Shown piece by piece: positions 11,934 to 44,698 of a DNA stretch of 44,698 nucleotides; position 1 is the stretch's first letter, and every line of letters begins with the position of its first letter. Source of the DNA: Thalassovita litoralis. Lineage in GTDB: Bacteria; Pseudomonadota; Alphaproteobacteria; Rhodobacterales; Rhodobacteraceae. Under the pieces are notes generated by a model. The model did no database searches, was not told the DNA's origin, and saw nothing but the letters and a program-made list of their open reading frames with translations. The DNA lies in the NCBI RefSeq assembly GCF_900182725.1, contig NZ_FXTO01000027.1, positions 1-44,698 of the forward strand, given 5' to 3'. Both the position numbers and the translations under genes were made by a program.

Positions 11934-13112
11934 GTGGACAATCAAATGACCGATGAGAACAATCCGGCGATCCTTCAAGACGTGAAGATCGTCGATCTGA
12001 CTTCTGTAGTTTTCGGACCTTTGGCGACGCAGATGCTGGGCGATCTGGGGGCCGATGTGATCAAGGTGGAAGGCCCCGAGGGCGATCTTCTTCGCCAGGT
12101 CCAGCCATCGCGCAACAAGCTGATGGGTGCCGCTTTTCTGGGGGCCAACCGTAACAAGCGCAGTGTCGTACTCGACCTCAAAACACAAACCGGTCTCGAT
12201 CAGTTGCGCAAACTGCTCATCGATGCCGATGTGATGATTTCGAGCATCCGGCCTGCGGCGCTTGCCAGATTGTCTTTGGAACCCGAAACCCTGCGCCAGG
12301 AAAACCCGAACCTGATCACGGTATCCGCCACCGGTTTCGGACAGGACGGGCCCTATGCCGCCAAGCCAGCATTCGACGATTCCGTCCAGTCGGTGTCGGG
12401 ATTGGCCAGCCTGGCAACCTTGCGCGACCCCGAGGCACCGCCCGCTTATGCCCCGACAATTCTGGCCGACAAGCTTGGCGGGGTCACCGCCGCCTATGCC
12501 GTGATGGGCGCCCTGTTCCACCGCGAGCGTACGGGACAGGCCCAGCATGTCGAAGTTCCGATGTTTGAGACGCTGGCCGCCTTCCTGCTGGCCGAACATA
12601 TGGATGGCGCCACCTTCGAGGAGGCTCCGCAGGATTTCGGCTATGCCCGCATGCTGGTTCCGCACCGGCGTCCGGTTCAGACCGCAGATGGCTACATCAC
12701 AATTCTGCCTTACACCAACGTACAATGGGCGCGGTTTTTCAAGACGGTTGGGCGCAATGACATGATCGACCATGTCTGGGTCACGGACATGGACGCCCGT
12801 AGCCGCAACATCGGCGCAGTATACGATATGGTGGCGCACATTGCGCTGACCCGGACCACAGATGAGTGGCTTGACCTCATGGAGCAGGCCGACATACCCG
12901 CCATGCCAGTGCGCAACCTGTCAGATTTACCGAACGATCCCCATCTTGCCGCAACCGGGTTCTTTCAACGGATTGATCACCCGACCGAAGGTGCGATCTG
13001 GACGACACGCCCGCCGGTTCGCTTTTCGGCGACCCCTGCGCGACATGATCATCGCCCGGCCCCGCGACTTGGGGAACACAGCGACGAAATTCTGGGGCCG
13101 GGCAGGGAGTAG
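11934..13112 (+). CDS. CaiB/BaiF (class III) CoA-transferase
   Basis: 392 aa, family III CoA-transferase with VDLTSVVFGPLATQMLGDLG, the SSIRPAALARLSLE segment, GFGQDGP and the candidate catalytic Asp in ILADKLGGVTAA. The start may be GTG at 11934 or ATG at 11946; neither has a strong ribosome site (a GGTAGG lies before the GTG). It ends 22 bp from the convergent dehydrogenase gene, with no obvious terminator between them, so transcripts may overlap there. Confidence 0.9.
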   Translation: MDNQMTDENNPAILQDVKIVDLTSVVFGPLATQMLGDLGADVIKVEGPEGDLLRQVQPSRNKLMGAAFLGANRNKRSVVLDLKTQTGLDQLRKLLIDADVMISSIRPAALARLSLEPETLRQENPNLITVSATGFGQDGPYAAKPAFDDSVQSVSGLASLATLRDPEAPPAYAPTILADKLGGVTAAYAVMGALFHRERTGQAQHVEVPMFETLAAFLLAEHMDGATFEEAPQDFGYARMLVPHRRPVQTADGYITILPYTNVQWARFFKTVGRNDMIDHVWVTDMDARSRNIGAVYDMVAHIALTRTTDEWLDLMEQADIPAMPVRNLSDLPNDPHLAATGFFQRIDHPTEGAIWTTRPPVRFSATPARHDHRPAPRLGEHSDEILGPGRE

Positions 13113-13133
13113 CCCCACCCGGCACCGGACGGA

Positions 13134-14291
13134 TCAAACATCCATCGAGCGTGCGATCAGTTCCTTCATGATCTCGTTGGTGCCGCCATAGATCATCTGG
13201 ACCCTGCTGTCGGCATAAAGTCGCGCGATGGGGTATTCCATCATGAAACCGTAACCGCCGTGCAGTTGCAGGCATTCATGCATGACCTCGTTCTGCGTCT
13301 GGCTGCCCCACCATTTCGCCATCGAAGCCGTGGCCGCATCAAGTTCGCCCGCTTCAAGACGCGCGAGCCCGTCATTTACGAAGGAGCGTAGCAATTCGGC
13401 CTTGGTTTTGCATTCCGCCAGTTTGAAGCGTGTATTCTGGAAGTCCATGATCCGGCTTCCAAATGCCTTGCGGTCCTGAACATATTTCACCGTTTCATCG
13501 ATCGCAAAATCAATAAAACCGAGCGCGGTAATGCCGATCATCAGCCGCTCCCAAGGCAGCTGCTTCATCAGCTGGTAGAACCCCTGCCCCTCTTCCGGAC
13601 CAAGCAGGTTCGCCGTGGGCACGCGCACATCCTCGAAGAACAGCTCAGCAGTATCCGAACCTTTCATACCCAGTTTCTTCAGGTTCCGTCCCCGGCGAAA
13701 GCCCTCGGCGCCCTCGGTTTCCAGAACGATCAACGAAACGCCCTTGGCGCCGGCGTTGCGATCGGTCTTTGCCACGATAACAACGAGATCCGCCGTGTGC
13801 CCGTTTGTGATAAAGATCTTCGAACCGTTGATCTTGTAGTGGTTGCCATCCTTTTCCGCATAGGTTTGTACGTTCTGGAGGTCAGAGCCCGTTCCAGGCT
13901 CGGTCATGGCAATCGCCGCAACGCTGTCGCCGCTGACCAGTTTCGGCAACCACTTTTTCTTCTGTTCCTCACTGCCATATGCGTTGAGATAATGGATTAC
14001 GATGGACTGAATCCCATAGCCCCAACCCGTATCACCGGTGCGCCCCTGCTCGTAGACGGTAATCGCGTCGAACCCGATGCCGCCACCGAACCCACCATAT
14101 TCTTCGGCAATCGAGCCACCCATGACACCCTGCTGACCGACTGTTTTCCAGAAGTCGCGGTCAACAATTCCCTGCTCCGCCCATTTTTCAATCTTCGGAG
14201 CCATCTCTGCATCGAAAAGCCTGCGTGTACTATCGGCGAACATCTTGTGTTCATCCACTGCCCAACTCGGGGAGTTCTTGATCAGAGACAT
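13134..14291 (-). CDS. Acyl-CoA dehydrogenase
   Basis: A canonical 385-aa acyl-CoA dehydrogenase: EEYGGFGGGIGFD, the AIAMTEPGTGSDL flavin segment, INGSKIFITNG, and at the C-terminus LQLHGGYGFMMEYPIARLYADS and YGGTNEIMKE. All hallmarks are intact and there is no adjacent partner subunit, so a homotetramer is likely. It forms a single-gene unit with its own copy of the cluster operator 38 bp upstream of the ATG. Electrons would go to the ETF encoded next door (14499-16183). Confidence 0.93.
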   Translation of the reverse strand: MSLIKNSPSWAVDEHKMFADSTRRLFDAEMAPKIEKWAEQGIVDRDFWKTVGQQGVMGGSIAEEYGGFGGGIGFDAITVYEQGRTGDTGWGYGIQSIVIHYLNAYGSEEQKKKWLPKLVSGDSVAAIAMTEPGTGSDLQNVQTYAEKDGNHYKINGSKIFITNGHTADLVVIVAKTDRNAGAKGVSLIVLETEGAEGFRRGRNLKKLGMKGSDTAELFFEDVRVPTANLLGPEEGQGFYQLMKQLPWERLMIGITALGFIDFAIDETVKYVQDRKAFGSRIMDFQNTRFKLAECKTKAELLRSFVNDGLARLEAGELDAATASMAKWWGSQTQNEVMHECLQLHGGYGFMMEYPIARLYADSRVQMIYGGTNEIMKELIARSMDV

Positions 14292-32288: not shown

Positions 32289-33500
32289 ATGCGAGAACGG
32301 TCTTTTACGGCTGATACGAAGGATCAATCCTTCGACGAGATCATCCTACAGCAAGGAGAGTTGATTTCCGACCGCCTCAATATGTTGCGTCAGGAACAGT
32401 ATCCTCCCGACGCTCAAAAAGGTCTACGTCAGTTTTCATTGGCCGAGGTTGCCTACTATCTCGGCGTGACGCAGTCGACCATTAAGAAGCTTCATCTCGA
32501 AGGCAAAGGTCCTGAACCTGAAACATCGTCGTCCGGGAGGCGCAGCTACTCGGCCGAGCAGATGCTGGAACTGAGAGCTTATCTCGACAAGCATGGCCGC
32601 CCCGGAAAACGCCGTTATGTCCCCTATCGGCAACCTGGCGAAGAACTGCACGTCGTGTCTGTCGTGAACTTCAAAGGGGGCTCGGGAAAGACCACTACCT
32701 CCGCTCACCTCGCGCAGCACTTGGCGTTGAAAGGGCATCGAGTTCTTGCGATCGACTTGGACCCTCAAGCGTCGTTCACAGCTTTGCACGGCATTCAGCC
32801 TGAACTCGACAACGTGCCTTCGCTCTACGAGACACTTCGGTATGATGACGAGCGCAAGCCGATCACAGAGGTGATCCGGCCAACAAATTTTCCCAACCTA
32901 GATATCGTTCCGGCAAGTCTCGAGCTTCAAGAGTACGAATACGATACCCCTGTTGCTTTGACGAGTAGCGATCCCCATGAGGGCCGTACCTTCTTCACTC
33001 GTATATCGAAGGCGCTTAGCGAGGTTGATGACCGCTATGACGTGGTTGTGATCGATTGCCCTCCTCAGCTGGGCTACCTCACACTCACTGCTCTCACGGC
33101 TTCTTCCTCGGTCATTGTGACGGTCCATCCTCAGATGCTGGACGTCATGTCGATGAGCCAATTTCTCCTGATGCTGGGCGGGATCATGAAGACGATCCGT
33201 GACGCTGGAGCGAACATGCGCCTGAAGTGGTTCCGTTACCTTGTAACGCGATTTGAACCAACGGACGGCCCCCAGAAGCAGATGGTTGGGTTCCTCCAGG
33301 CGATGTTTCCAAATCAGATGCTGTCGGCTCCTGTGCTAAAATCTACGGCGATCTCCGACGCTGGGATCACCAAACAGACGCTTTACGAAGTTGAGCGGTC
33401 TCAGTTCGTGCGGACTACTTACGACCGTGCAGTGACTTCGTTGAATGATGTGAACGACGAGATCGCCGAACTGATCCACAAGGCTTGGGGGCGTGAATGA
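32289..33500 (+). CDS. repA: Plasmid partitioning ATPase RepA (ParA type)
   Basis: 403 aa. An N-terminal MerR-like winged HTH (FSLAEVAYYLGVTQSTIKKL, about 49-70) precedes a ParA ATPase with deviant Walker A KGGSGKTTT (129-137), ALDPQ-like IDLDPQ (155-160) and Walker B VVVIDCPPQ. In repABC plasmids RepA and RepB segregate the plasmid, and RepA with RepB represses the operon from the promoter in front of repA. It is the first gene of repABC and precedes repB by about 100 bp that contain two repeats. Confidence 0.95.
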   Translation: MRERSFTADTKDQSFDEIILQQGELISDRLNMLRQEQYPPDAQKGLRQFSLAEVAYYLGVTQSTIKKLHLEGKGPEPETSSSGRRSYSAEQMLELRAYLDKHGRPGKRRYVPYRQPGEELHVVSVVNFKGGSGKTTTSAHLAQHLALKGHRVLAIDLDPQASFTALHGIQPELDNVPSLYETLRYDDERKPITEVIRPTNFPNLDIVPASLELQEYEYDTPVALTSSDPHEGRTFFTRISKALSEVDDRYDVVVIDCPPQLGYLTLTALTASSSVIVTVHPQMLDVMSMSQFLLMLGGIMKTIRDAGANMRLKWFRYLVTRFEPTDGPQKQMVGFLQAMFPNQMLSAPVLKSTAISDAGITKQTLYEVERSQFVRTTYDRAVTSLNDVNDEIAELIHKAWGRE

Positions 33501-33505
33501 ATGAG

Positions 33506-33548
33506 GTTTTGACAGCCGTGCAGAGAGCCAGTTTTGACAGCCGTGCAA
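33506..33548 (+). repeat. Two direct repeats between repA and repB, candidate partition sites
   Basis: GTTTTGACAGCCGTGCA occurs at 33506-33522 and 33531-33547, 25 bp apart, and a third identical copy is at 32003-32019. Each core is weakly dyad-symmetric (TTG-x3-G-x-C-x3-CAA where the last base fits). Their placement around repA fits centromere-like sites bound by RepB, or operator sites; the function is inferred. Confidence 0.55.
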
Positions 33549-33603
33549 CTGTCGAAATGCGCGCAGCGCGTAGGTTGGATTCTGACGAAAAGGAGATGGC
33601 TTG

Positions 33604-34599
33604 ATGGCGCGCAAAGACCTCCTGAAGAGCGTCATGGCCGGCTCGCCGGAGCAGCCCAAGGATTCCGGTCGCTCTGGATACGCAATGCGCGGTGCTTCGA
33701 AATCGATGAAGGTTTCGATTGATAGCCTTGCGGAGAACTCGAAGCGTCTTCTTGAAGGCGAGACCATTGTCGAGATCGATCCGCAATTGATCGATGTGTC
33801 ATTCGTCTCGGATCGGCTTAGTGATGACGATATTGCGTTCAACGAACTGAAAGCATCGATCGCGGCCGGTCGCCAGGACACACCGGTATTGCTTCGACCG
33901 CATCCAGAAGCAGATGGTCGCTACATGATCGTCTTCGGGCATCGCCGTGTGCGAGTTGCATCGGCGCTCGGCCGTAAGGTTCGCGCAGTTGTAAAGCCGA
34001 TGGACGACGTGGCCCACATTCTTGCTCAAGGGCAGGAGAACACTGCGCGCGCAGATCTCTCATTTATTGAGAAGGCCCTATTTGCGAAGAGCCTTTTGGA
34101 TATGGGGCAAGCAAAGGACGTGATCCAGTCCGCCCTGACCATTGACGGTACTTTGCTTTCGCGCATGCTTTCAGTGGCGCAGAACGTCCCGCGGAACGTC
34201 ATCGAACAGATTGGCCCAGCCAAGCAGATCGGGCGTGATCGTTGGGAGGATTTCAAGAAGTTGGCCTCGGAGCCCAAGAATGAGAAGATCCTCAAAGGAG
34301 CTTTGGAGTTCGACGGTTTTCAGGGTCTCGATAGCGATGCACGCTTCGAGTTCCTGCACAGCAAGCTAGCAGAAGCGGGCAGGGCGCCGAAAAGCCGAAA
34401 AACGCGTGCCACGCCCAAGAAACGTACTTGGACCGCCGGCAAAGGCCGCATCAAAGGCGTCATCGGCCGATCCGGAAAGGCATTCAGCATTTCACTCACG
34501 GCGCAAGACTCGACCGAGTTCGGGGACTTTCTCTCGGGCCGGCTCGATCAGCTGTACAGTGAATTCCTCGCGACGAAAGAGGAGCAGTCAGAACAATGA
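33604..34599 (+). CDS. repB: Plasmid partitioning protein RepB (ParB type)
   Basis: 331 aa from ATG 33604 with AAGGAG upstream; it begins MARKDLL as RepB proteins do. The ParB/Srx domain shows PVLLRPHP and FGHRRVRVA (GHRR at 112-115), then GQENTARADLSFIEKALFA, and a central HTH region DVIQSALTIDGTLLSRML. It binds the plasmid centromere and acts with RepA. The C-terminal dimerisation part is present. A 160-bp gap to repC holds the predicted antisense RNA. Confidence 0.95.
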   Translation: MARKDLLKSVMAGSPEQPKDSGRSGYAMRGASKSMKVSIDSLAENSKRLLEGETIVEIDPQLIDVSFVSDRLSDDDIAFNELKASIAAGRQDTPVLLRPHPEADGRYMIVFGHRRVRVASALGRKVRAVVKPMDDVAHILAQGQENTARADLSFIEKALFAKSLLDMGQAKDVIQSALTIDGTLLSRMLSVAQNVPRNVIEQIGPAKQIGRDRWEDFKKLASEPKNEKILKGALEFDGFQGLDSDARFEFLHSKLAEAGRAPKSRKTRATPKKRTWTAGKGRIKGVIGRSGKAFSISLTAQDSTEFGDFLSGRLDQLYSEFLATKEEQSEQ

Positions 34600-34605
34600 T
34601 CTAGG

Positions 34606-34660
34606 CAAAAGAAAAGCCCCCAAGCAGCGTGGCCTGAGAGCTAATCTGAAAAGTTTGGTC
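34606..34660 (-). ncRNA. Predicted counter-transcribed RNA controlling repC
   Basis: On the minus strand a strong promoter, TTGACA (34690-34695), 17 bp, TATCTT (34667-34672), predicts a start near 34660. A hairpin (34615-34642, about 8-9 pairs including G-U) followed by TTTTCTTTT ends near 34606. The ~55-nt product lies between repB and repC, exactly where repABC plasmids encode the antisense RNA that limits RepC synthesis and sets incompatibility. Predicted from sequence only. Confidence 0.75.
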
Positions 34661-34759
34661 GCTTAGAAGATATCTCTCCCGCGAATCACTGTCAACAAGA
34701 ACGCCACTTCGGCGAACGGCTTTCTTTTGCCTCCACATAACTGGAGGTGAGAAACAGGC

Positions 34760-36040
34760 ATGGAACATACAGGTTGGCGCAAGCCGACACCGGGTCTTGG
34801 CATTGCAGAGCAACTTGCCCAAGCCGGTGAACAGGTAGCTGTACCCAAAACACGAGCCTTCGTGGCAGTGAAGCGGGTGGGGGCCTACATTGGCCTCAAG
34901 GCCGGAGACATGATGCTCCTCGACACGCTCGGAGCGTTTACCCAAGCCCAGGACTGGGAGGAGGGGCAGCGCCCGATCGTCTGGGCGTCAAACGCCTATC
35001 TGATGGAGCAGACCGGGTTCTCGCTGTCCGCGCTGAAACGCCATGCGCGACGGCTGGCCGAGATCGGCGTGATCTCCTTCCAGGACAGCCCAAACGGCAA
35101 GCGATGGGGCCGCAGGGACGCCGAGGGGCGCATCGTCGAGGCCTATGGCTTTGATTTGTCGCCGCTGTCGGCGCGAGTCGAGGAGTTCGAGGAGCTTCAT
35201 ACCGATTTGCAGGTCGAGCGCGAGCTCTGTCAGCGCCTGAAGCGCCAGATCACGGTTGCACGCCGTATGATCCGCGCGCGGATCGAGGCGGCCGTCAGCA
35301 GCGCGCTACGAGGGCCCTGGACTCAATTCACGGGTCTCTTCGAGGAGCTTCTGGACCGGCTTCCGCGCCGCCATGAAACCTCAGAACAGCTTGTGCGGCT
35401 GCTAACATGGTTCAAGGAGCTCCAGGAGCGTGTCGAGGCGGCCTATCTCAAGGCAACGGAGGGTGTCCAGCCTGTGGAAAACACGCCTGAAACCAAGGCA
35501 CAAGTCTTCGAAAAGACTCAAAAAATGAACCCCAGGGAGGCCATTTCTGACCCTCATATACTAATTACAAACCAACTTGATCCTGTAACTCGTAATTCCT
35601 CTGAAAAAGAGGAAGCGGCGGCCGTGGTACCCAATGCTCACACCGAGGATCGGGTTGATAAGGAGCTGGAAGACTGGGTGGCCGAAGTGCGCAAGAAACG
35701 GACGGCGCTCGATCTTCCGACAATCATGCAGGCCTGTCCGGAATTCGCATCCTGGGCGCGCAATCTAGGTGGATTCCTGAAGGATTGGGGCGATCTGCAT
35801 CGGGTTGCGGGGCAACTTAGGCCAATGATCGGGATCTCGGAGCATGCCTGGAACGCGGCGCAGGACAGAATGGGCACTCAAGTGGCAACGGCAGCATTTG
35901 CGCTTGTCTTCGAGAAACACAGCACAGGGGAGGTTTCCTCGCCGGGCGGATATCTGCGCGGCATGGTCGAGAAAGCCGGGGCAGGGGAGTTGCACCTCGA
36001 GCGCAGCTTCTATGGCAGGCTCAGCGGGCAGGCGGCGTGA
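34760..36040 (+). CDS. repC: Plasmid replication initiator RepC
   Basis: 426 aa; begins with the conserved RepC N-terminus (GWRKPTPGL, AFVAVKRVGAYIGLKAGDMMLLDTLGAFT) and has a winged-helix segment QTGFSLSALKRHARRLAEIGVI. The C-terminal domain (DLPTIMQACPEFASWARN and GTQVATAAFALVFEKH) is complete. RepC initiates replication at an origin located inside its own gene. GGAGG lies upstream of the ATG. It follows repB by 160 bp containing the antisense RNA, and it is probably the rate-limiting product of the module. Confidence 0.95.
   Translation: MEHTGWRKPTPGLGIAEQLAQAGEQVAVPKTRAFVAVKRVGAYIGLKAGDMMLLDTLGAFTQAQDWEEGQRPIVWASNAYLMEQTGFSLSALKRHARRLAEIGVISFQDSPNGKRWGRRDAEGRIVEAYGFDLSPLSARVEEFEELHTDLQVERELCQRLKRQITVARRMIRARIEAAVSSALRGPWTQFTGLFEELLDRLPRRHETSEQLVRLLTWFKELQERVEAAYLKATEGVQPVENTPETKAQVFEKTQKMNPREAISDPHILITNQLDPVTRNSSEKEEAAAVVPNAHTEDRVDKELEDWVAEVRKKRTALDLPTIMQACPEFASWARNLGGFLKDWGDLHRVAGQLRPMIGISEHAWNAAQDRMGTQVATAAFALVFEKHSTGEVSSPGGYLRGMVEKAGAGELHLERSFYGRLSGQAA
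35500..35620 (+). other. AT-rich segment inside repC, candidate oriV
   Basis: This stretch of repC is clearly AT-richer than its surroundings (around CTCATATACTAATTACAAAC) and encodes the variable linker between the two RepC domains. In studied repABC plasmids the origin lies in such an AT-rich segment within repC, so it is the best candidate for the unwinding region. Confidence 0.5.
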
Positions 36041-36052
36041 TAGGGCAGGGGG

Positions 36053-37204
36053 TCAGAGACCGGCGGCTTTGGTCAGGTTCACCCGGAACCGGTCGCGACG
36101 GCGCTGGTAGCGCCGGGTCATCTCGGCCGAGGCGTGTCCGAGCTGTTTCTGGACGTAGCGTTCATCAACTTCGGCTGAGCTGGCGAGGCCGGCGCGCAGC
36201 GAGTGTCCGGAGAACAGCGCTAGGCGCTCTTTCTCGGGTAGCTCGGATCGAATGCCTGCGTCCAGGACCGTGCGCTTGATCAGACGGGCGACGTGTTTGT
36301 CGTTCAGTCGCGTCTCCAGAGCCTTCTTACCATCACGGGAGGTGCCGACGAAGACCGGACCGAAGTCGATCTTTGCGAAGTGCAACCATCGCTCGAGCGC
36401 GTGGACGGGGCAGGTCTGGTCCGTTGACCCGCGGCCAATCTCAACCTCGCGCCAGCCGGTCTTGGCGTTCAGCGTCAGGACCGCTCCGTCCTCGAGGATC
36501 TCGACCCAGCCGCCGCTGTCGGGGGTGACATCTTTGCCGTGATCGAGGCTGACGATTTCGGAGCGTCTGAGACCCCCCGCGTATCCTAGGAGCAAGATGG
36601 CCCGGTCGCGCAGCCCGCGTAGATCGAAGCCCAAAGTAGCCACCATGGCGAGAATGTCTTCGGGCAGGATCGCTTCCTTCTGAACCGGGGGGCGGGCATG
36701 TTTGCGCTTGATCCCAGCCAGGACGGTGGCGATGTGGCGGTCTTTTCGATCCAAAGGGAACCCACGCTGCGCGTAGTTCCAGGCAAGTCCGGACAGGCGG
36801 CGGTCTATCGTACTGACGGAAAGAGCAGGGGAGGGGCCTGTCGGCGCGGCCAAGTCAGTCAGGTAGAGGCCGATCATTTCCGGTGATGGAGGCAGCGGGT
36901 CCGTTCCTTTCAGCCTGCACCAGCGCGCAAAATGCTTCCAGTCGGCGGCATAGGCCTTGTTGGTGTTCTCGGCGGTCGAGGCCTTGGCATAGTCGCGGGC
37001 GTTCTCAACCAAGCGATCGAGGGTGCCGGACCCGGCAACATGAGAGGGCAGGGCGATTGAGGCCCCGTCCAGAGTGACTTTCTCGTCTCGCTCGTTCCCG
37101 TTAGGCGCATCATGGGACGCCGAGCTCGAAGTCTCAGCCTCAGGCGTGTCAGATTTCTCGATTTTGGTGCTGCTATTTGTGAGACTATTCATGTATTCGA
37201 GCAT
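36053..37204 (-). CDS. Tyrosine recombinase/integrase
   Basis: 383 aa with an N-terminal SAM-like core-binding domain (ENTNKAYAADWKHFARWC) and a catalytic domain with Arg213 (GLRRSE), Lys248, His334-x2-Arg337 (GHSLRAG), His357 (LGHAS) and nucleophile Tyr366 (TRRYQ), so it should be active. A second ATG at 37192 is possible; neither has a clear ribosome site. It is convergent with repC (12-bp gap). Such recombinases next to repABC may resolve plasmid dimers. A 12-7-12 inverted repeat immediately upstream is a candidate crossover site. Confidence 0.93.
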   Translation of the reverse strand: MLEYMNSLTNSSTKIEKSDTPEAETSSSASHDAPNGNERDEKVTLDGASIALPSHVAGSGTLDRLVENARDYAKASTAENTNKAYAADWKHFARWCRLKGTDPLPPSPEMIGLYLTDLAAPTGPSPALSVSTIDRRLSGLAWNYAQRGFPLDRKDRHIATVLAGIKRKHARPPVQKEAILPEDILAMVATLGFDLRGLRDRAILLLGYAGGLRRSEIVSLDHGKDVTPDSGGWVEILEDGAVLTLNAKTGWREVEIGRGSTDQTCPVHALERWLHFAKIDFGPVFVGTSRDGKKALETRLNDKHVARLIKRTVLDAGIRSELPEKERLALFSGHSLRAGLASSAEVDERYVQKQLGHASAEMTRRYQRRRDRFRVNLTKAAGL

Positions 37205-37212
37205 ATCATGAT

Positions 37213-37243
37213 TACGTCCGATAATGCAAACTTATTGGACTTA
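37213..37243. promoter_or_regulatory. Candidate crossover site for the adjacent tyrosine recombinase
   Basis: TACGTCCGATAA (37213-37224) and TTATTGGACTTA (37232-37243) are inverted arms matching at 10 of 12 positions around a 7-bp spacer, TGCAAAC. This geometry is that of dif/lox-type core sites. It lies 9 bp upstream of the recombinase start, so it could also be an operator for that gene. Confidence 0.5.
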
Positions 37244-37318
37244 GCGTGGAGCCGCAGGGTGGGGCGGTTTGCACATCATATTGTGGACGAAAGCGCCGCC
37301 ACGGGATAGTCTTGTGGC

Positions 37319-38272
37319 ATGACATACCAGCCCGCCAAGATCTCCAACGACCTGAGCACCCTACCGCAGCTGCCGGGCTGGGTCACCTCCGGACGTGCGG
37401 AAACCCTTGAAACTGTGGCCTTTCGATCGGGGGCGGCGCTGACGGTGCTCGATCAACTGATCAGCGATCCCAGGCATGGCGTGCCGCTGAAACTACTGGC
37501 CAACCGACTGGCGCTGAGTGCCGCAGTGGCGACCTCGAAACTGGAAGGACGGCTGGTGCGGGAAGTCGATATCCGCGATGCCTACCATCTGACGCCGCCG
37601 GGCGAGGCGCGCGGTCCCGATGGCGATCTGCTGGCCTTCTGGCGCGAGGCGGTGCGGCTTCGGCTGAATGGACCCGGCGAGATCGCAGACCTGATCGGGC
37701 CCGACCGCGCGGAGGATGTGGCCGGTTGGTTGGACGCCGGGCAAGATCGGGCCCGGACTCATGGGCCTCTGGCGGGATGCGTGGCCGTCCTGCGTGCCGT
37801 TTTGGAGACCGATGACCGAGGAGAGCGGGTCGCTTGCTTGCTGTCCGATGTCGTCCTGGCGCGGGCCCTGAACTGGAAGGTGGTGTTACCGGTTACGGCG
37901 CAGCGGCTGACGAAGGCCGCATTGCGCGACCTGACAGCAGAAGGGCAAAGGGCCGAGCTGGCAGTCCAGGCGCGGATCCTCGAGTCCATCGAGGCTGTGA
38001 TCCGGCTGGCGCGGGATCTCGCCCGCCGCGCCGAGGCACTTCGCACCGTCGCGCCGAAGCTCCGGGCGAAGGGATCGGATGCCGCGGTCGAGCTGTTCCT
38101 GACCGAGGATGCGGTGTTGCCTGCGTGGATGCTGTCGCCGCGTATCCGCGGAACAACGATCCCCATGACCGATCGCGCCGCGCGGCGGTTCTGCGATCGA
38201 TTGGTCGAACTGGGCGTGGCACGGGAGCTAACCGGACGGCCGACCTTCCGGCTCTATGGGATCGCGCCATGA
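37319..38272 (+). CDS. DUF1403 family protein
   Basis: 317 aa, rich in Ala, Arg and Leu and mostly helical. It matches the DUF1403 family (LPGWVTSGRAETLE at the start, FRSGAALTVLDQL, and RTHGPLAGCVAVLRAVLE) found mostly on rhizobial and rhodobacterial plasmids, usually next to an scpB gene. Its stop overlaps the scpB start as ATGA, so the two are coupled. Function unknown; the steady pairing with ScpB suggests a role in plasmid condensation or maintenance. Confidence 0.85.
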   Translation: MTYQPAKISNDLSTLPQLPGWVTSGRAETLETVAFRSGAALTVLDQLISDPRHGVPLKLLANRLALSAAVATSKLEGRLVREVDIRDAYHLTPPGEARGPDGDLLAFWREAVRLRLNGPGEIADLIGPDRAEDVAGWLDAGQDRARTHGPLAGCVAVLRAVLETDDRGERVACLLSDVVLARALNWKVVLPVTAQRLTKAALRDLTAEGQRAELAVQARILESIEAVIRLARDLARRAEALRTVAPKLRAKGSDAAVELFLTEDAVLPAWMLSPRIRGTTIPMTDRAARRFCDRLVELGVARELTGRPTFRLYGIAP

Positions 38273-38874
38273 CGACCGCGACCCGGAAACGGAAACCGGT
38301 GGACGAGGGAGGCGCCGGCTTTGACCGGGAGCTCGATGATCTGCCGCAAGAGTTGCGCTGGCGCGAATGGATGGGGCGGGTCGAAGCGGTGCTGTTCGCC
38401 AGTGCCTCGCCGGTTGGCCGCGACGATCTCGCGCGCGTGGTGGGGCAGGGGGCCTCGGTCGAGATGCTGATCGAAGACATCCAGGCCGAGTTGACCGGCC
38501 GTCCCTACGAACTGGTTCAGGTCGCCGGCGGCTGGATGTTTCGCACCAGGACGCAGTTTGCAGATGCCATCAAGGCGGCTGCCGATATTGGCGACCAGAC
38601 GCTCGCCTTCACCGAGATGGAGATGGGGGTGCTCTGCGCCATCGCCTATCATCAGCCGATCGACCGCGCCGGCTTGGCCGACATTTTCGGCAAGGAGGTC
38701 AGCCGCGATCTTCTGGCCCGGCTGCGGTACAAGGATCTAATCGCCAGCGGGCCGCGGTCGCCGCGTCCTGGGGCGCCGCATACTTTTGTCACAACCGAGA
38801 CGTTTATGGTGACGTTCGATCTGCAGAGCCTGCGGGATCTGCCGGAATTGGAGCTGGTTCAACACCCAGCCTAA
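38269..38874 (+). CDS. scpB: ScpB-like segregation and condensation protein
   Basis: 201 aa from ATG 38269. It has two winged-helix domains of ScpB: LRWREWMGRVEAVLFASASPV with VEMLIEDIQAEL, and LAFTEMEMGVLCAIAYHQPI with GLADIFGKEVSRDLLARL. ScpB normally bridges ScpA and SMC. No scpA or smc is present here, so this is a plasmid-borne accessory copy. Four-base overlap with the DUF1403 gene. Confidence 0.85.
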   Translation: MTTATRKRKPVDEGGAGFDRELDDLPQELRWREWMGRVEAVLFASASPVGRDDLARVVGQGASVEMLIEDIQAELTGRPYELVQVAGGWMFRTRTQFADAIKAAADIGDQTLAFTEMEMGVLCAIAYHQPIDRAGLADIFGKEVSRDLLARLRYKDLIASGPRSPRPGAPHTFVTTETFMVTFDLQSLRDLPELELVQHPA

Positions 38875-38981
38875 TCGGCTTCGCTCAAGCAAACTGCCAT
38901 GTCCTACATGTTGTAGTCTGCGCCTTACGAAACGCTGATTGAAGTGCTATCTCTGTCATATGGAAGGTACGGGTCATTGGC

Positions 38982-40316
38982 GTGAACAAGAAGATTACTG
39001 CCAGTCAGCGAATTGGCGAAATCGGGGAGAAGGCGGCAAATCTTCAATTCTTGCGAATTGGGTTCCAATTCGATGGGCGGTCACGTCTGGAAGCGGGTAT
39101 CGACGGCATCGCTGAGGTGATGGACGATGATCAACCGACAGCGAAGATGATTGCCGTGCAGGTTAAGGCTACCGAGAGCGGCAGCTATTCTGGAGAGACT
39201 GATGCCGGGTTCTCCTATCGTGTCCGCGCTTCGGACTTTGATTATTGGCGCGGCTCCAACCTACCCGTAATTCTCGTTCTCTACAGGCAATCGGATGACA
39301 CGTTCTTTTGGAAGTCGCTCGAAAACCTCGTTGGCGAGGCCGAACGCACATTGCAGTTCGACAAAGAGCGCGACGTCTTGGACGGACGTGCGAAGGATCG
39401 CCTCGCTGCCCTGACTGTCGCCAAGCAAGGACACGGCTACTATGTCCCGCCACTTGGGGGAGGGGAGGAAGCGATCATCAACATGGTGCCATTGCAGCTT
39501 CCTGAGGAAATCTTCGTCGCACAGACTCAGCTCTCCACCCAGAAGGCGCTCGCCCGGATGAACAAGGTCCGGGAAGACCAGCGGTACGATTGGATGATCG
39601 ATGAAACCTCGCTTTGGACATTCTGCGACCCACTAACCACACCCGTTCGCGACTTGGTCGAACGGGATCAGGTCGAACGGATCGAAACCGACTTTCTGGC
39701 GCAACACGACGCCGTAGATCAGCAGCACAAATTTGCGGGCCTGTTGCGACATACTCTGGCGCATGACTTTCGGGACTTGCTTGGGTGGGACCGAAAGAAA
39801 AAACAGTTCTACTTCTTGCCAACACCTGGAAGCGTCGCGCGCAAGTTCCGCTATCTTGGCGCGAAGCAGAAGACGCAGGCCGACGTTGTCAGCGTCTATC
39901 AGAAGTCAAAGGGGGAGGGGCCCGTCGACTATGTACGGCACCATTCATTCCACCCTCGGTTCGAGCGCTTGGCGGATAAATGGTACCTGATCGTCAACCC
40001 ATCCTACTACTTCACTTCAGATGGAGAACGCGCGCTCAACTATCCGGATGCCTTGTTGTCCGGCAAGAAACGCCTCGACACGAACAGCACAGTTCGAGGC
40101 CAGGTGATCATGTGGCATCGATTGCTATCGGGTATGGATTTTGAAGATGCCGGCGAACTGCTGACGCCCGACACCAAGACGGATCGCATCATCAAGTTCG
40201 GTCTTCCGCCTTCCGTCGAACTGCCAAAGAGCGTGCCCGAGGATGTGTGGGGCGCGAAGGCGCAGAAGTCGAAGAAGCCACCCCACTCCGATGAACAAGG
40301 CAGCTTCGACCTATGA
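38982..40316 (+). CDS. DREN-APAZ: DUF4365 (PD-(D/E)XK) nuclease fused to an APAZ domain
   Basis: 444 aa, start GTG 38982 (no better in-frame codon upstream). The N-terminal ~160 residues are a DUF4365 domain of the PD-(D/E)XK nuclease fold: Glu13/Glu16 in [10 protein letters not shown], Asp41 in GIDGIAEV, and Gln60-Val-Lys62 in IAVQVKAT. The rest has APAZ features, including [13 protein letters not shown] and [11 protein letters not shown], the domain that pairs with short Argonautes in place of their missing N-PAZ half. The gene overlaps the Argonaute gene by ATGA. In characterised SPARDA systems this nuclease is triggered by guide-directed target DNA recognition and degrades DNA and RNA indiscriminately, killing or arresting the cell. 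Function here is inferred from family and gene order. Confidence 0.9.
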
Positions 40317-41788
40317 GCGACTTCAAGACCAAAATCTTCCCGGAGCCCGAACTGGAGTTTGGCGACCAACACCATCATCCTGATCCGCGATTAGGGTTGC
40401 TACAGGCGGGCCCACTGCAAACGAACCTGGGGGACACCATCAAAGTCGGCGTTGTTGGCAGCGCTCTTACCGTCGAAAAATCAGGCGAATTTCTGGATGC
40501 GATCAAAGATGGGTTCGAGGGGAAGACCGAAAAGCACCCGAACCTGCACCCGGACTTTCCCGGGTTGAGAAATCAGAACCCCTATCGGTGCCGGTTCGAA
40601 ATGGTGGCTGCCGACGTCGGTCTGCTGACGAAAGGTCAGATCGAGAAGATTGCCAAGGAACCGAGCGATGCGCGTGCTGTGGAGATGGCGGTCGATGCAG
40701 TTATGGAGCAACTGGAAAAGCTTGAGGCGCATCATGAACGGCCAGACGTGGTCATGGTTTCGCTCCCTGTCAAGCTGATCGAACGAGTCTGGAGAAACGA
40801 GCAGGCGCGCGATGACGAGGTCGTAGAGGACAAAGCGGCCGAGGCGAAAGCTGGTAAGGAAACCTCTCCGAACTTCCGCGGTTTGCTCAAGGCCAGAGCG
40901 ATGAATCTCAGATTCTCAATTCAGATTGTCTGGGAGGATGTCATCAACCCCGATGCCAAGATCCCTCGCAAGATCAAGGAGAACTCTGACCGCCAAACCC
41001 AAGATCGAGCTGATCTCGCATGGAACCTTATGACAACGCTCTACTACAAGGGCAGCGGCAAGGTGCCCTGGCGCAGATTGCCGGAAGAAGGCGAGTTCAC
41101 CGCCTGTTACATTGGCATCAGCTTCTTCAAGGATGCCGAAACCGACGAGATATGGACCAGTGCTGCGCAAATGTTCGACGAGCGGGGCAGAGGGTTCATT
41201 CTTAGAGGCGGTCCTGCGCAGTCAGAGTCGCGGGGTCGCCACCCGTTCCTCACTATCGATGAGGCTCACAAGCTCACCGAGAGTGCCTTGGCCGCCTACA
41301 AGTCGGTCCATAGAACGATGCCGGCACGCGTGATCGTCATGAAGACGTCGCGCTTTCGCGAGGACGAGGCCGAGGGTGTTGGTAAGGCGCTCGACGAGGC
41401 AGGTGTGGAACTGCGCGATCTCGTTTGGATTCATGAGAGCTATTCAGTCAAGGTGCTGCGCGACGGCGACTTCCCTGTCCTCCGCGGCACCTTCGTTGAA
41501 CTGGACGGCAATGGGCTGCTCTATACCAACGGCAGCATTCCCTACTATGGGACCTATCCTGGCCTCTATGTCCCGAATCCCCTGTTGCTCTGTCCGCACC
41601 CGCAAAGCGAGAGCACGATCGAACAGATTGCGAAGGAAGTTTTCAGCCTCACGAAGGTGAACTGGAACTCGACCCAGATGAACCAACGCTTGCCGATTCC
41701 GATCCGAGCAGCGCGTAAGGTCGGTGACGTGTTGAAATACGTTCCCTCGGGGCAAAAGGTCAGCAGTGACTATCGGAAGTACATTTAG
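40313..41788 (+). CDS. Short prokaryotic Argonaute (MID-PIWI), catalytically inactive
   Basis: 491 aa with only the MID and PIWI half of Argonaute. The MID part includes [19 protein letters not shown] (about 192-210). The PIWI domain begins near CYIGISFF (265-272) and ends with [10 protein letters not shown] and [19 protein letters not shown]. The DEDX slicer acids are lost: the first position is Ser in IGIS, and MKTSRF (343-348) replaces the usual Asp motif. Short Argonautes of this kind use a small guide to recognise invading nucleic acid and then activate their partner. ATG overlaps the DREN-APAZ stop, giving equal production, consistent with the known 1:1 complex. Confidence 0.93.
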
Positions 41789-41908
41789 AAGTTGCACACC
41801 GAGCACGCCGTCGGCTCCATGGATGCTGTTAAGAGCATCTGATCGTCGTTCCTCGAAGCTCCCGAGTTTCCAGCGGATCTTTTTTCGGCAAGTGACTTCT
41901 CTGGCGTT
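41789..41908 (+). other. Gap after the Argonaute gene
   Basis: No gene is seen. A 6-bp stem GATGCT / AGCATC (41822-41839) could be a weak transcription stop for the Argonaute operon, but no T tract follows. Confidence 0.3.
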
Positions 41909-42002
41909 TGATATATAAAAGCACATCATGCGCATGCCTTGATGTAGAACTCCACATCAATCTTGAAGTCTCCTTCAGTGAGTGATATGTTTATGCATAT
42001 CA
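41909..42002 (+). promoter_or_regulatory. hipBA promoter with three HipB-type operators
   Basis: Three 20-bp inverted repeats of one type, TGATRT-N8-AYATCA, lie at 41909-41928, 41940-41959 and 41983-42002. The second has perfect 7-bp arms (TTGATGT / ACATCAA when extended by one base). A promoter TTGAAG (41963-41968), 17 bp, TATGTT (41986-41991) has its -10 inside the third operator. Multiple 20-bp operators are typical of HipB autoregulation. Confidence 0.75.
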
Positions 42003-42032: not shown

Positions 42033-42632
42033 ATGGGTTACGCAACGGAGCACATTGCAGAGTCGCTCAAAGCCGCGCGGGAACGCAAGGGGCTCTCTCA
42101 GCGCGCGCTTAGTGCGAAGGCGGGGGTTCCACAGAGCCACATCTCCAAGATCGAGAACGGGGCGGTCGATCTGCGTCTGTCCAGCCTGGTCGAGCTTGCA
42201 CGTGTACTTGATCTGGAATTGACTCTGGTCCCGCGCAAGAAGCTGCCTGCCGTTCGGGCGATCATTCGCGGTGATGATGATGGTCACCGTGACGTTCAGA
42301 GCGCGCGTAAGGCAACGAACCTATTGCAGCGCCTTGATGACCAGATAGCAGCGCTTCCCAGTGAAACGCTCTCTGAGATTGTCGTTCAGGAGTTGCAGCG
42401 CCGGGCGCGCGAATTGATGCACTTCAAGCTTTCAGCCGATGATCTTGTTCAGTTGCAAGAAGCCTCTGCTGCCATGCAGGAGTTCCTGAGCGATCCGCGC
42501 AACTTGGAAGCGGTCGAGCAGGCGCAGAGCCAGTTGCGCATGTTGCGCAACGCACTCGCCCATGGCGCGGGTGTATCTGCACCATCCTTGCCGCGTCCGG
42601 CCTATCGTCTGGACGGTGACGATCGTGGCTGA
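42033..42632 (+). CDS. hipB: HipB-like antitoxin (XRE helix-turn-helix)
   Basis: 199 aa. N-terminal HTH_XRE domain (residues ~6-62: LKAARERKGLSQRALSAKAGVPQSHISKIENG), then LARVLDLELTLVPR. The remaining ~120 residues form a helical extension (QLQEASAAMQEFLSD, EQAQSQLRMLRNALAHG) much longer than in E. coli HipB (88 aa). It should bind the three operators upstream and hold HipA inactive. It overlaps hipA by 8 bp. Confidence 0.88.
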   Translation: MGYATEHIAESLKAARERKGLSQRALSAKAGVPQSHISKIENGAVDLRLSSLVELARVLDLELTLVPRKKLPAVRAIIRGDDDGHRDVQSARKATNLLQRLDDQIAALPSETLSEIVVQELQRRARELMHFKLSADDLVQLQEASAAMQEFLSDPRNLEAVEQAQSQLRMLRNALAHGAGVSAPSLPRPAYRLDGDDRG

Positions 42633-43842
42633 TGTCAGTGTCCTTGAAGTCCTGCTCTACGGAGAGCCGATAGGTACGTTGACGCGGGTCAGCGGTGATA
42701 CCTCGCTCTTTGCTTTCTCTGAAGGCTATGTCGCCGATGCGGGCAGGCCGGTTCTGAGCCTCGGTTTCAAGAATGAGCTTGGGGAACTGACCACTGATTT
42801 CGGTACGCAGAACATGCACCTGCTGCCCTTCTTCTCAAATCTTCTGCCCGAAGGTCACATGCGGGACTATCTCGCCGAGCGCGCGGGCGTGAAGCCCGTC
42901 CGTGAATTTTTCCTGCTCTGGGTTCTCGGCGAGGACCTTCCCGGTGCGGTCACTGTTCGGCCCGCCGATGGTGAGGCGTGGCCCCCCGACGCTGATGATG
43001 GTGAAGATCATCACGATGATCATCGAGATCAGGCGCTGAGGTTCTCGCTGGCAGGCGTTCAGTTGAAGTTCTCGGCTTTGGGAGACAAACAAGGCGGTCT
43101 TGCGATTCCGGCCAAGGGGGTCGGCGGCTCCTGGATCGTCAAGTTGCCAGCGCAAGGCTTCGATGCTGTCCCCGAGAATGAATTCTCGATGATGACGCTC
43201 GCGCGTCTCTGCGGCATGGATGTTCCGCCGATAAGGCTGATCGATGTTGCCGACATCGGCAACCTGCCCGAGGGCATGGATAAGGTCAGCGGTCAGGCGC
43301 TGGCGGTCGAAAGATTTGACCGTCTGAGTGATGGCAGCGCTGTTCACATTGAAGACTTCGCGCAGGTCTTTCGCGTTTATCCCAAGGACAAGTACGAGAA
43401 GGCAAGCCAGCGCAACATCGCACAGGTACTGGCCGCTGAATGCGGAGAGGCCGACATCGCCGAGTTTATCCGGCGGCTGACTTTCAATGTGCTGATCGGC
43501 AATGCCGACATGCACCTCAAGAACTGGTCGCTGATCTATCCGGATCGTAGGCAGGCAGCGCTCGCGCCGTGTTACGATTTTGTTTCGACCATTGCCTACA
43601 TAGACGACGACAAGGCGGCGCTCACCTTTAGCCGCACCAAGAAGTTCTCTGGGTTCTCGAAGGACGAGCTGTCGCACCTGGCTGCAAACGCCGGTCTATC
43701 CGAGAAGCTGGTTCTGGGAACCGCACGCGAGACTGTCGCGCGCTTCCATGAGCACTGGCAGGCCGAAAAGGGAAACCTGCCGCTGACCGCGGATGCGATC
43801 AAGGCGATTGAAGCCCATTTGCACACAGTGCCGATAGCGTAG
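42625..43842 (+). CDS. hipA: HipA-family serine/threonine kinase toxin
   Basis: 405 aa from GTG 42625, overlapping hipB; an upstream ATG at 42562 lies deep within hipB. It has the N-terminal HipA domain (LLYGEPIGTL) and the C-terminal kinase: RFSLAGVQLKFS, the ATP-binding Lys in SWIVKLPA, the catalytic loop NADMHLKNW (Asp295) and the metal-binding YDF (317-319). In characterised pairs HipA phosphorylates a translation factor or aminoacyl-tRNA synthetase such as GltX and halts growth. A His/Asp-rich insert (DGEDHHDDHRD) before the kinase core is unusual. Confidence 0.92.
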   Translation: MADVSVLEVLLYGEPIGTLTRVSGDTSLFAFSEGYVADAGRPVLSLGFKNELGELTTDFGTQNMHLLPFFSNLLPEGHMRDYLAERAGVKPVREFFLLWVLGEDLPGAVTVRPADGEAWPPDADDGEDHHDDHRDQALRFSLAGVQLKFSALGDKQGGLAIPAKGVGGSWIVKLPAQGFDAVPENEFSMMTLARLCGMDVPPIRLIDVADIGNLPEGMDKVSGQALAVERFDRLSDGSAVHIEDFAQVFRVYPKDKYEKASQRNIAQVLAAECGEADIAEFIRRLTFNVLIGNADMHLKNWSLIYPDRRQAALAPCYDFVSTIAYIDDDKAALTFSRTKKFSGFSKDELSHLAANAGLSEKLVLGTARETVARFHEHWQAEKGNLPLTADAIKAIEAHLHTVPIA

Positions 43843-43854
43843 GGGATTGGCAGA

Positions 43855-44609
43855 ATGGCAGAGAGTTTTTCGAACCGGCACGGCTACCGCAGCGCAGCCG
43901 CGGAGATAACCGTTCACGAGGACGCGCCCGAAAACCTGCGCTATGCGATCCCGCTGATTGGGCAGGACATCGGCATGAGCCCGTCCGCCATGCGCCGGAT
44001 CATCTGTCAGGTGTTGCTCGTCCCGCCTGACCGAAACAACTGGTCGGAGCACCCTAACATCTAAGAAGAGGTCGTCGGGCTTGTTGCCGACTGTCCTTGG
44101 TACAAGGTCTATGACATTGCTGAAGCGTTCCATAAGGCACTCGCGCAAGGGTTCAACGACAATGCAAGCAGGTTCGATGACCGGCTGAACCAGTTCATTG
44201 TCGAAAATGGCATCGGCTGGCATATGTACGACGGCCAGATAGTCTATCGCGGTTCCGAAGTATTTACCGGCGCGACACAGGAGGCGGTCGAAATCGTCGA
44301 ACAAACCGGGCGCAGTGCCGCCGCACGCGAGATCCACGAAGCGCTGCGCCGTATTTCTCGGCGGCCGGAACCGGATGTGACCGGGGCAATCCAGCATGCC
44401 TGCGCCGCGATGGAAGCGACCGCGCGGGATCTGGCCGGCGATTCCAAAGCAACATTCGGCCAGCTTGTAAAGCGATTGGACCTTCCAAAACCTCTTGATA
44501 CCGCAGCCGAGAAACTGTGGGGCTATGCGTCCAATAATGCTCGTCACGGGTTGGAAGGACAGCAGGTTGATACGCCAGAGGCCGAGCTGGTTGTCAGTGT
44601 AGCTGTCAC
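43855..44609 (+). pseudogene. AbiJ-N-terminal/HEPN-like abortive infection gene, interrupted
   Basis: The frame starts 12 bp after hipA and encodes the AbiJ_NTD4-type N-terminus (ESFSNRHGY). A TAA at 44062-44064 interrupts it after HPNI, and the same frame then continues with the expected PWYKVYDIAEAF, GIGWHMYDGQIVYRG, RRPEPDVTGAIQHACAAMEAT and ASNNARHGLEG, a HEPN-like region. Near 44610 the frame runs into a sequence resembling a transposon end, which replaces the last residues. No frameshift is needed, only the stop. HEPN proteins are usually RNases. Here it is probably inactive unless the stop is read through or is an assembly error. Confidence 0.75.
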
Positions 44610-44698
44610 TGTACCCTCATTAATCAGAATTGCCTTTAAAATTATCGTTTGTTTTCAGCGGCACGATGTACCCTTAATTTTCATATTGTACCGTTAAT
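44610..44698. mobile_element. Probable left end of a Tn7/IS21/Tn5053-like transposon
   Basis: From 44610 base composition drops in GC and a motif recurs in direct orientation: TGTACCCTCATTAAT (44610-44624), TGTACCCTTAAT (44667-44678) and TGTACCGTTAAT (44687-44698). Repeated transposase-binding sites beginning TGT at one end are typical of Tn7-like, Tn5053-like and IS21 elements. The rest lies outside the window. Confidence 0.5.

Follow-up and report, generated by a model that had tools for sequence, protein, structure and literature searches.

The gene pair at positions 38982-41788 of the window, by which we mean the whole stretch of 44,698 nucleotides that was analyzed, is very probably a complete SPARDA defense operon, with an activity assigned by analogy with NbaSPARDA and XauSPARDA. 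It is an ordinary further member of the already described SPARDA type and is of note mainly for gene swapping between plasmid settings. Near-identical copies occur in two plasmid-type settings and in at least 13 named genera, which provides a natural test of defense genes as cargo shared among plasmids, and the pattern formed by these copies is most readily interpreted as repeated homologous exchange that would be confined to the shared coding sequences (CDS).

The Gene Pair Belongs to the SPARDA Type

The first gene (38982-40316, forward strand) starts with GTG and encodes a DREN(DUF4365)-APAZ effector of 444 amino acyl residues with D41, Q60, and K62 as catalytic PD-(D/E)XK residues. The second gene (40313-41788, forward strand) starts with ATG and encodes a short prokaryotic Argonaute (Ago) of 491 residues consisting of MID and PIWI alone, and the ATGA at 40313-40316 is common to the end of the effector gene and the start of the Ago gene. 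The ORF coordinates show that the original prediction of two genes with an ATGA overlap was correct to the base. The effector, predicted to be a DUF4365 nuclease-APAZ fusion, indeed matches DUF4365 in Pfam (E 1.9e-25, residues 13-143) and REase-APAZ models in PADLOC (Aga_REase-PNTD1-PNTD2, E 1.1e-163), and its best sequence match in the PDB is the DREN-APAZ protein of NbaSPARDA (E 2.1e-141). Similarly, the description of the partner as a MID-PIWI-only short Ago is confirmed by a match to the PADLOC model pAgo_I for short pAgos of class I (E 1.8e-168) and by NbaAgo as best PDB sequence match, which extends over the full length (E 5.3e-217). Both genes are intact, the two-gene system is complete, and the predicted repABC setting is found as well, a repABC replication/partition module at 32289-36040 (RepA, 32289-33500; RepB, 33601-34599; RepC, 34760-36040; all forward strand) lying upstream of the pair and outside SPARDA itself.

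Sequence, tree, and predicted folds all place the pair in SPARDA, as had been proposed. AlphaFold models were made for each protein separately from 27-row alignments, that of DREN-APAZ being of middling confidence (pLDDT 75.8, pTM 0.55) and that of the Ago reaching a pLDDT of 79.9 and a pTM of 0.82. Foldseek searches of the PDB with these single-chain models return SPARDA chains as top match for DREN-APAZ (E 2.5e-47) and for the Ago (E 8.5e-66), followed, among the rows listed, by SPARHA and then by SPARTA/SPARSA. The APAZ part of the effector model matches 9vx1_B with a TMt of 0.91 and an rmsd of 2.7, which, together with the DUF4365 match and the ATGA overlap, characterizes the effector as a co-operonic DUF4365-APAZ partner, and the Ago model matches SPARDA Ago chains along its entire length. 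In a quick Ago tree (n=84, after removal of 13 close rows that were near-identical and of one partial row), built without SPARTA Agos and without characterized SPARSA Agos, the window Ago lies among short Agos linked to DREN-APAZ and shares one clade of 59 rows with NbaAgo (SH-aLRT 100), and the Xau and Eae SPARDAs form a neighboring group. The window Ago is 62.9% (304/483) identical to NbaAgo, 52.0% to the Ago of XauSPARDA, and 50.1% to that of EaeSPARDA, and the DREN-APAZ proteins of window and Nba are 50.9% (216/424) identical. Because of this placement and these identities, the window SPARDA is not divergent, contrary to what had been considered possible. The Pfam Piwi model (PF02171) found no match in the window Ago and none in 240 genomes of the class; judging from the 63% identity to NbaAgo and from the published description of short Agos, the window PIWI is probably catalytically dead and without slicer residues.

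XauSPARDA and EaeSPARDA (PDB 9qbl, 9qbq, 9qcc, 9qbp) share architecture and fold with the window pair although they belong to the neighboring clade, and the title of 9qcc, an Xau entry, is that of an activated filament. Presumably these structures are those of Jurgelaitis et al. 2025. The same two-gene architecture is found in NbaSPARDA from Novosphingopyxis baekryungensis (PDB 9jsb, 9jsp, 9jsz, 9jt2, 9vx1, 9vx6; PMC12205087). TmuRE-Ago from Thermocrispum municipale also combines a DUF4365-APAZ protein with a short Ago and is described as cleaving DNA nonspecifically upon RNA-guided recognition (PMC10810196); compared by description, it prefers 5'-OH guides with a 5' U, whereas the residues of the window Ago predict a 5'-phosphate and AU. 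SPARTA, SPARSA, and SPARHA likewise consist of a short Ago and an APAZ partner but give weaker structural matches, and their effectors are TIR, SIR2, or HNH, whereas that of the window is DREN. An identity as SPARTA or SPARSA was rejected, the APAZ partner carrying neither TIR nor SIR2 and DUF4365 being the sole domain found.

Functional Residues and Proposed Mode of Action

Functional residues as given for NbaSPARDA in PMC12205087 were counted in 95 rows for the Ago and 86 rows for DREN-APAZ, and 85 DREN-APAZ rows could be assigned to groups. Excluded from the count were L001 (the window's own copy), L098-L102 (presumed duplicates), L107 and L108 (distant), any Ago row aligned over fewer than 440 residues, and any DREN-APAZ row below 26% identity or aligned over fewer than 370 residues. 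Conservation of the nuclease residues in homologs had been set beforehand as a test of the original prediction, and the prediction passes it, none of the 85 counted rows differing at D41, Q60, or K62. All 12 guide-contact side chains that were checked are identical in the window (Nba numbering), comprising R183, K187, and K240 for the 5'-phosphate, N181, F182, W159, W201, and N232 for A1/U2, and S447, N451, R221, and R459 for other guide contacts. The PIWI-PIWI filament contacts (6/6) and the DREN beta interface (4/4) are kept as well, and in the Ago-Ago guide dimer R301 is kept and E268 is replaced by D.

In contrast to these catalytic, guide-binding, and PIWI-PIWI residues, other contacts of NbaSPARDA are unlike in the window. 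None of the six APAZ-APAZ guide-dimer contacts is kept (R260A, Y261H, R279L, Y349E, Q353N, F354Y), nor any of the three MID-MID contacts (R244K, which is conservative, G140H, and E97V). Two of four MID-PIWI contacts (changed: Q134E, R295P), one of three in the DREN alpha1 interface (changed: N17K, R20N), and three of six in DREN docking (changed: N8S, R123T, and E30Q, so that the E30-R123 pair has become Q and T) are retained. Most of the contacts that are not kept are uniform across the close clade of the window. The APAZ-APAZ positions vary in 49 mid-range rows too, with H at Y261 in 48 of them, and R244 (52/52) and R295 (45/52), both different in the window, are better kept in mid-range rows. 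The APAZ-APAZ contact may be particular to Nba, and since its residues vary throughout Nba's own clade, their absence may not amount to a loss. In NbaSPARDA, disruption of the guide-bound dimer is reported to impair the nuclease only mildly, whereas disruption of PIWI-PIWI abolishes it and changes in MID-MID and MID-PIWI impair it (PMC12205087). For the window copy we predict from these residues that the same filament core would serve in activation and that the guide-bound dimer would be dispensed with or built differently.

Following what is described for NbaSPARDA and XauSPARDA, the Ago and DREN-APAZ proteins would form a heterodimer, which would take up a short 5'-phosphorylated RNA guide with a predicted preference for 5'-AU, like NbaAgo. 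Once the guide pairs with DNA of an invading plasmid or phage, the PIWI sensor loop would be pushed out, heterodimers would stack via PIWI-PIWI contacts into a filament, and the four DREN domains brought together in this way would cut DNA nonspecifically at their PD-(D/E)XK sites, such collateral cleavage leading to cell death or dormancy. Heterodimer, guide use, filament, collateral cleavage, and defense are thus transferred from the two characterized systems, and the present analysis contributes gene structure, family, predicted fold, residues for catalysis, guide binding, and filament core, and purifying selection. The Nba filament is described in PMC12205087, and 9vx6 is an Nba entry titled as filament or helical; according to the same authors, conservation of the filament in other SPARDAs remains to be studied. 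The window copy belongs to the Nba clade, and Xau, the other SPARDA with a filament structure, to the neighboring one. With its filament core kept and the Nba guide-dimer residues absent, the window copy could help to separate out the contacts that activation needs.

Distribution and Genomic Contexts of the Operon

Relatives were collected from one-per-species genomes as the best 80 of 522. Among these, at least 16 loci from at least 12 named Rhodobacterales genera encode full-length Agos at least 95% identical to that of the window, and plasmid records add Phaeobacter as a further genus. The CDS pairs of Maritimibacter dapengensis (L014) and Salipiger abyssi (L013) are 100% and 99.96% identical to that of the window, and across the close copies in Rhodobacterales nucleotide identity of the operon is 91-100%. 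After these, identity among the matches listed drops to about 60-68% for full-length relatives, which come mostly from Alphaproteobacteria. One allele has probably spread recently. A survey of the family (394 genomes) gave a short-Ago match of some kind in 25 genomes and full-length copies of at least 97% identity in five, that of the window included. An origin on prophages does not appear typical, the best of five short-Ago loci from viral contigs being 33% identical, and a fixed neighbor for SPARDA in general was rejected, as neighbors vary among eight relatives on plasmids with identities up to 65%.

Comparison of 20 close copies distinguishes two contexts that are unrelated to each other. 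In context A (the window and 11 others, one of them, L026, seen on the 5' side only), the operon follows DUF1403-ScpB and precedes HTH-HipA, and in 7 of these 12 loci, the window included, the fetched stretch contains RepC. In context B (8 loci), it is situated between TraG and an AAA ATPase within a conjugation cluster. CDS pairs of A and B are 91.2-99.3% identical, and homology between the contexts begins at the GTG start codon and stops one base after TAG (38982-41789 in the window) in nine of nine B loci, L099 included; the other loci in this border observation are L003, L016, L018, L020-L022, L025, and L036. A tree of the 20 CDS pairs, built without the four presumed duplicates L098-L101, shows three or more changes of context, and context B as a single clade is rejected (p-AU 5e-6). 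The copy L017 lies in context A, and five context-B copies match it at 99.1-99.3% identity, whereas in its 3' flank it has 96.8% identity to the window. Pseudoprimorskyibacter insulae possesses both contexts in one genome (L015, L021), and therefore partners for exchange can meet. Recombination limited to the CDS explains the later exchanges; it does not explain why the original border falls exactly on the start and stop codons. An open-access search found no paper describing the DUF1403-ScpB slot or exchanges between A and B.

These settings bear on what the operon is for. It is possible, although we consider it doubtful, that it serves mainly as a plasmid weapon that excludes rival plasmids or punishes their entry, phage defense being secondary. 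The 12 copies in the DUF1403-ScpB setting and the eight beside TraG would fit such a role, as would the report that NbaSPARDA restricts plasmid transformation (PMC12205087), and the operon may take part in competition between plasmids. However, NbaSPARDA is also described as protecting against phage T5 (PMC12205087), the two copies of P. insulae indicate that carriers coexist, relatives of about 63-65% identity occur in other settings, for example adjoining BREX, and a relative from Labrys resides on a replicon named chromosome 2; matches to plasmids that come from a plasmid-only collection carry no weight in this question. The broader proposal that in Rhodobacterales SPARDA is a shared plasmid cassette, exchanged repeatedly from start to stop between a replication-linked slot behind DUF1403-ScpB, itself a general defense hotspot, and a conjugation-linked slot and activated through a PIWI-PIWI filament without an APAZ-APAZ dimer, is put forward as a speculation that we think rather unlikely to hold in all its parts. 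If true, SPARDA would here be an immune module passing from plasmid to plasmid with a simpler activation cycle.

Genes Surrounding the Operon

Between repABC and SPARDA, the window encodes a tyrosine recombinase/integrase (36053-37204, reverse strand), DUF1403 (37319-38272, forward strand; Pfam), and an ScpB-like protein (38269-38874, forward strand; named from annotated relatives), the latter two marking the slot that holds SPARDA. DUF1403-ScpB has 66% GC vs. 56-59% for repABC, SPARDA, and HTH-HipA, and several context-A loci that otherwise resemble that of the window have homologs with identities of only about 44% and 66%, which suggests that DUF1403-ScpB may have been exchanged separately. 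A leader at 38898-38981 (forward strand), common to most context-A copies, is presumed to contain promoter and ribosome-binding region; a sigma-70 promoter scan gave no site in front of the SPARDA operon. Downstream, outside SPARDA and in context A only, HTH and HipA genes (42033-43842, forward strand) are preceded by two inverted repeats (41939-41960 and 41983-42002), which may be the operator of a toxin-antitoxin pair of HipBA type.

Of the 12 context-A loci, 11 have the HTH gene beside SPARDA and 10 have HipA there, with the window counted in both, and together with the inverted repeats in front of the HTH gene this would be expected if SPARDA and HTH-HipA formed one unit, for example with the HTH protein as controller. 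In contrast, HTH/HipA was detected in none of the eight context-B loci and in none of 64 other loci at a cutoff of E 1e-8 and a minimum coverage of 30%, some of these loci breaking off shortly behind the Ago gene, and no inverted repeat was found in front of SPARDA. A single unit is therefore improbable, and HTH-HipA as third component was rejected because the scan detected it neither in context B nor in the other relatives. At the end of the window, the stretch 43855-44697 consists of two ORFs (43855-44064 and 44224-44697), whereas in Phaeobacter sp. G2 (L004) it is one annotated gene (12543-13334), so that this gene may be broken in the window; ORF 44224-44697 matches the candidate defense model PDC-S32 (E 6e-14).

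Defense Genes in the DUF1403-ScpB Slot

The slot behind DUF1403-ScpB on Rhodobacterales plasmids (36053-38981 in the window) looks like a defense hotspot. When five plasmids with the DUF1403-ScpB order (L110-L114) were opened, genes picked by annotation from four of them matched PADLOC models for AbiEi/AbiEii, IetAS, and QatA and, more weakly, E1-E2 (E 2e-13). For a less biased comparison, DUF1403 loci of the family were ranked, a single locus was taken from each genome, and 40 stretches downstream of the best ones (L145-L184) were used, chosen on DUF1403 with ScpB presumed for each locus; 29 control stretches were taken from elsewhere on such contigs. A locus that was too short and near-copies of L165 and L177, six slot loci in all, were removed, as was the SPARDA locus L165 itself, and of the 33 that remained the first 30 were taken; for each locus the largest of the first three ORFs was scanned with PADLOC (E up to 1e-20). 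Defense matches were obtained in 8 of 30 slot loci vs. 1 of 29 controls (Fisher p 0.015 one-sided, 0.026 two-sided), namely GajA twice, IetS, PDC-S01, RTasSbcB, SngA, AbiEii, and PDC-M21C in the slot and a CBASS effector as sole control match; two TnsB matches in slot loci were not counted. Scanned in batches, 100 ORFs from the slot (with SPARDA among them) gave 119 PADLOC families and 100 control ORFs gave 41, many of them redundant. The enrichment of the slot for defense genes is moderate and comes from a single sampling.

Selection and Broken Relatives

Compared with ten relatives, the window DREN-APAZ has dN/dS values of 0.077-0.141 and the window Ago of 0.044-0.113; both genes are under purifying selection, so that both proteins are maintained and the pair is far from a chance finding. 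The effector frame is open to its normal end in 23 of 24 close CDS pairs, a number that includes the window and the four presumed duplicates. That the operon is a decaying passenger hitch-hiking on the plasmid, as broken relatives in M633, Tropicimonas, Paracoccus, Pacificitalea (IS66), and Roseomonas sp. OT10 (IS5) might suggest, is hardly credible in view of the intact window copy, its dN/dS of 0.04-0.14, and the open effector frames.

Regarding the broken copies themselves, the DREN-APAZ gene of Phaeobacter inhibens M633 (L003, 7670-9004) is interrupted by a stop at codon 200, and the SPARDA copies of Tropicimonas and Paracoccus (L028, L027) are truncated or broken. In Pacificitalea (L109, 1634-6063), an annotated DUF4365 gene is followed by IS66 genes where the Ago gene would be expected, and in Roseomonas sp. 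OT10 an IS5 transposase lies under the match.

Other Short Argonaute Loci

A different short Ago, about 29-30% identical, is encoded by L107 (1465-2985), and L108 is alike. The partner of the L107 Ago (2-1480) contains a HATPase_c_4 domain (E 5e-7) and is possibly an unusual effector. In genome G204, the start of this Ago lies about 7.7 kb past a DUF1403 gene. On a viral contig (L094:3591-4991), a short Ago is accompanied by a partner with DUF4062 (E 8e-25) and no named nuclease.
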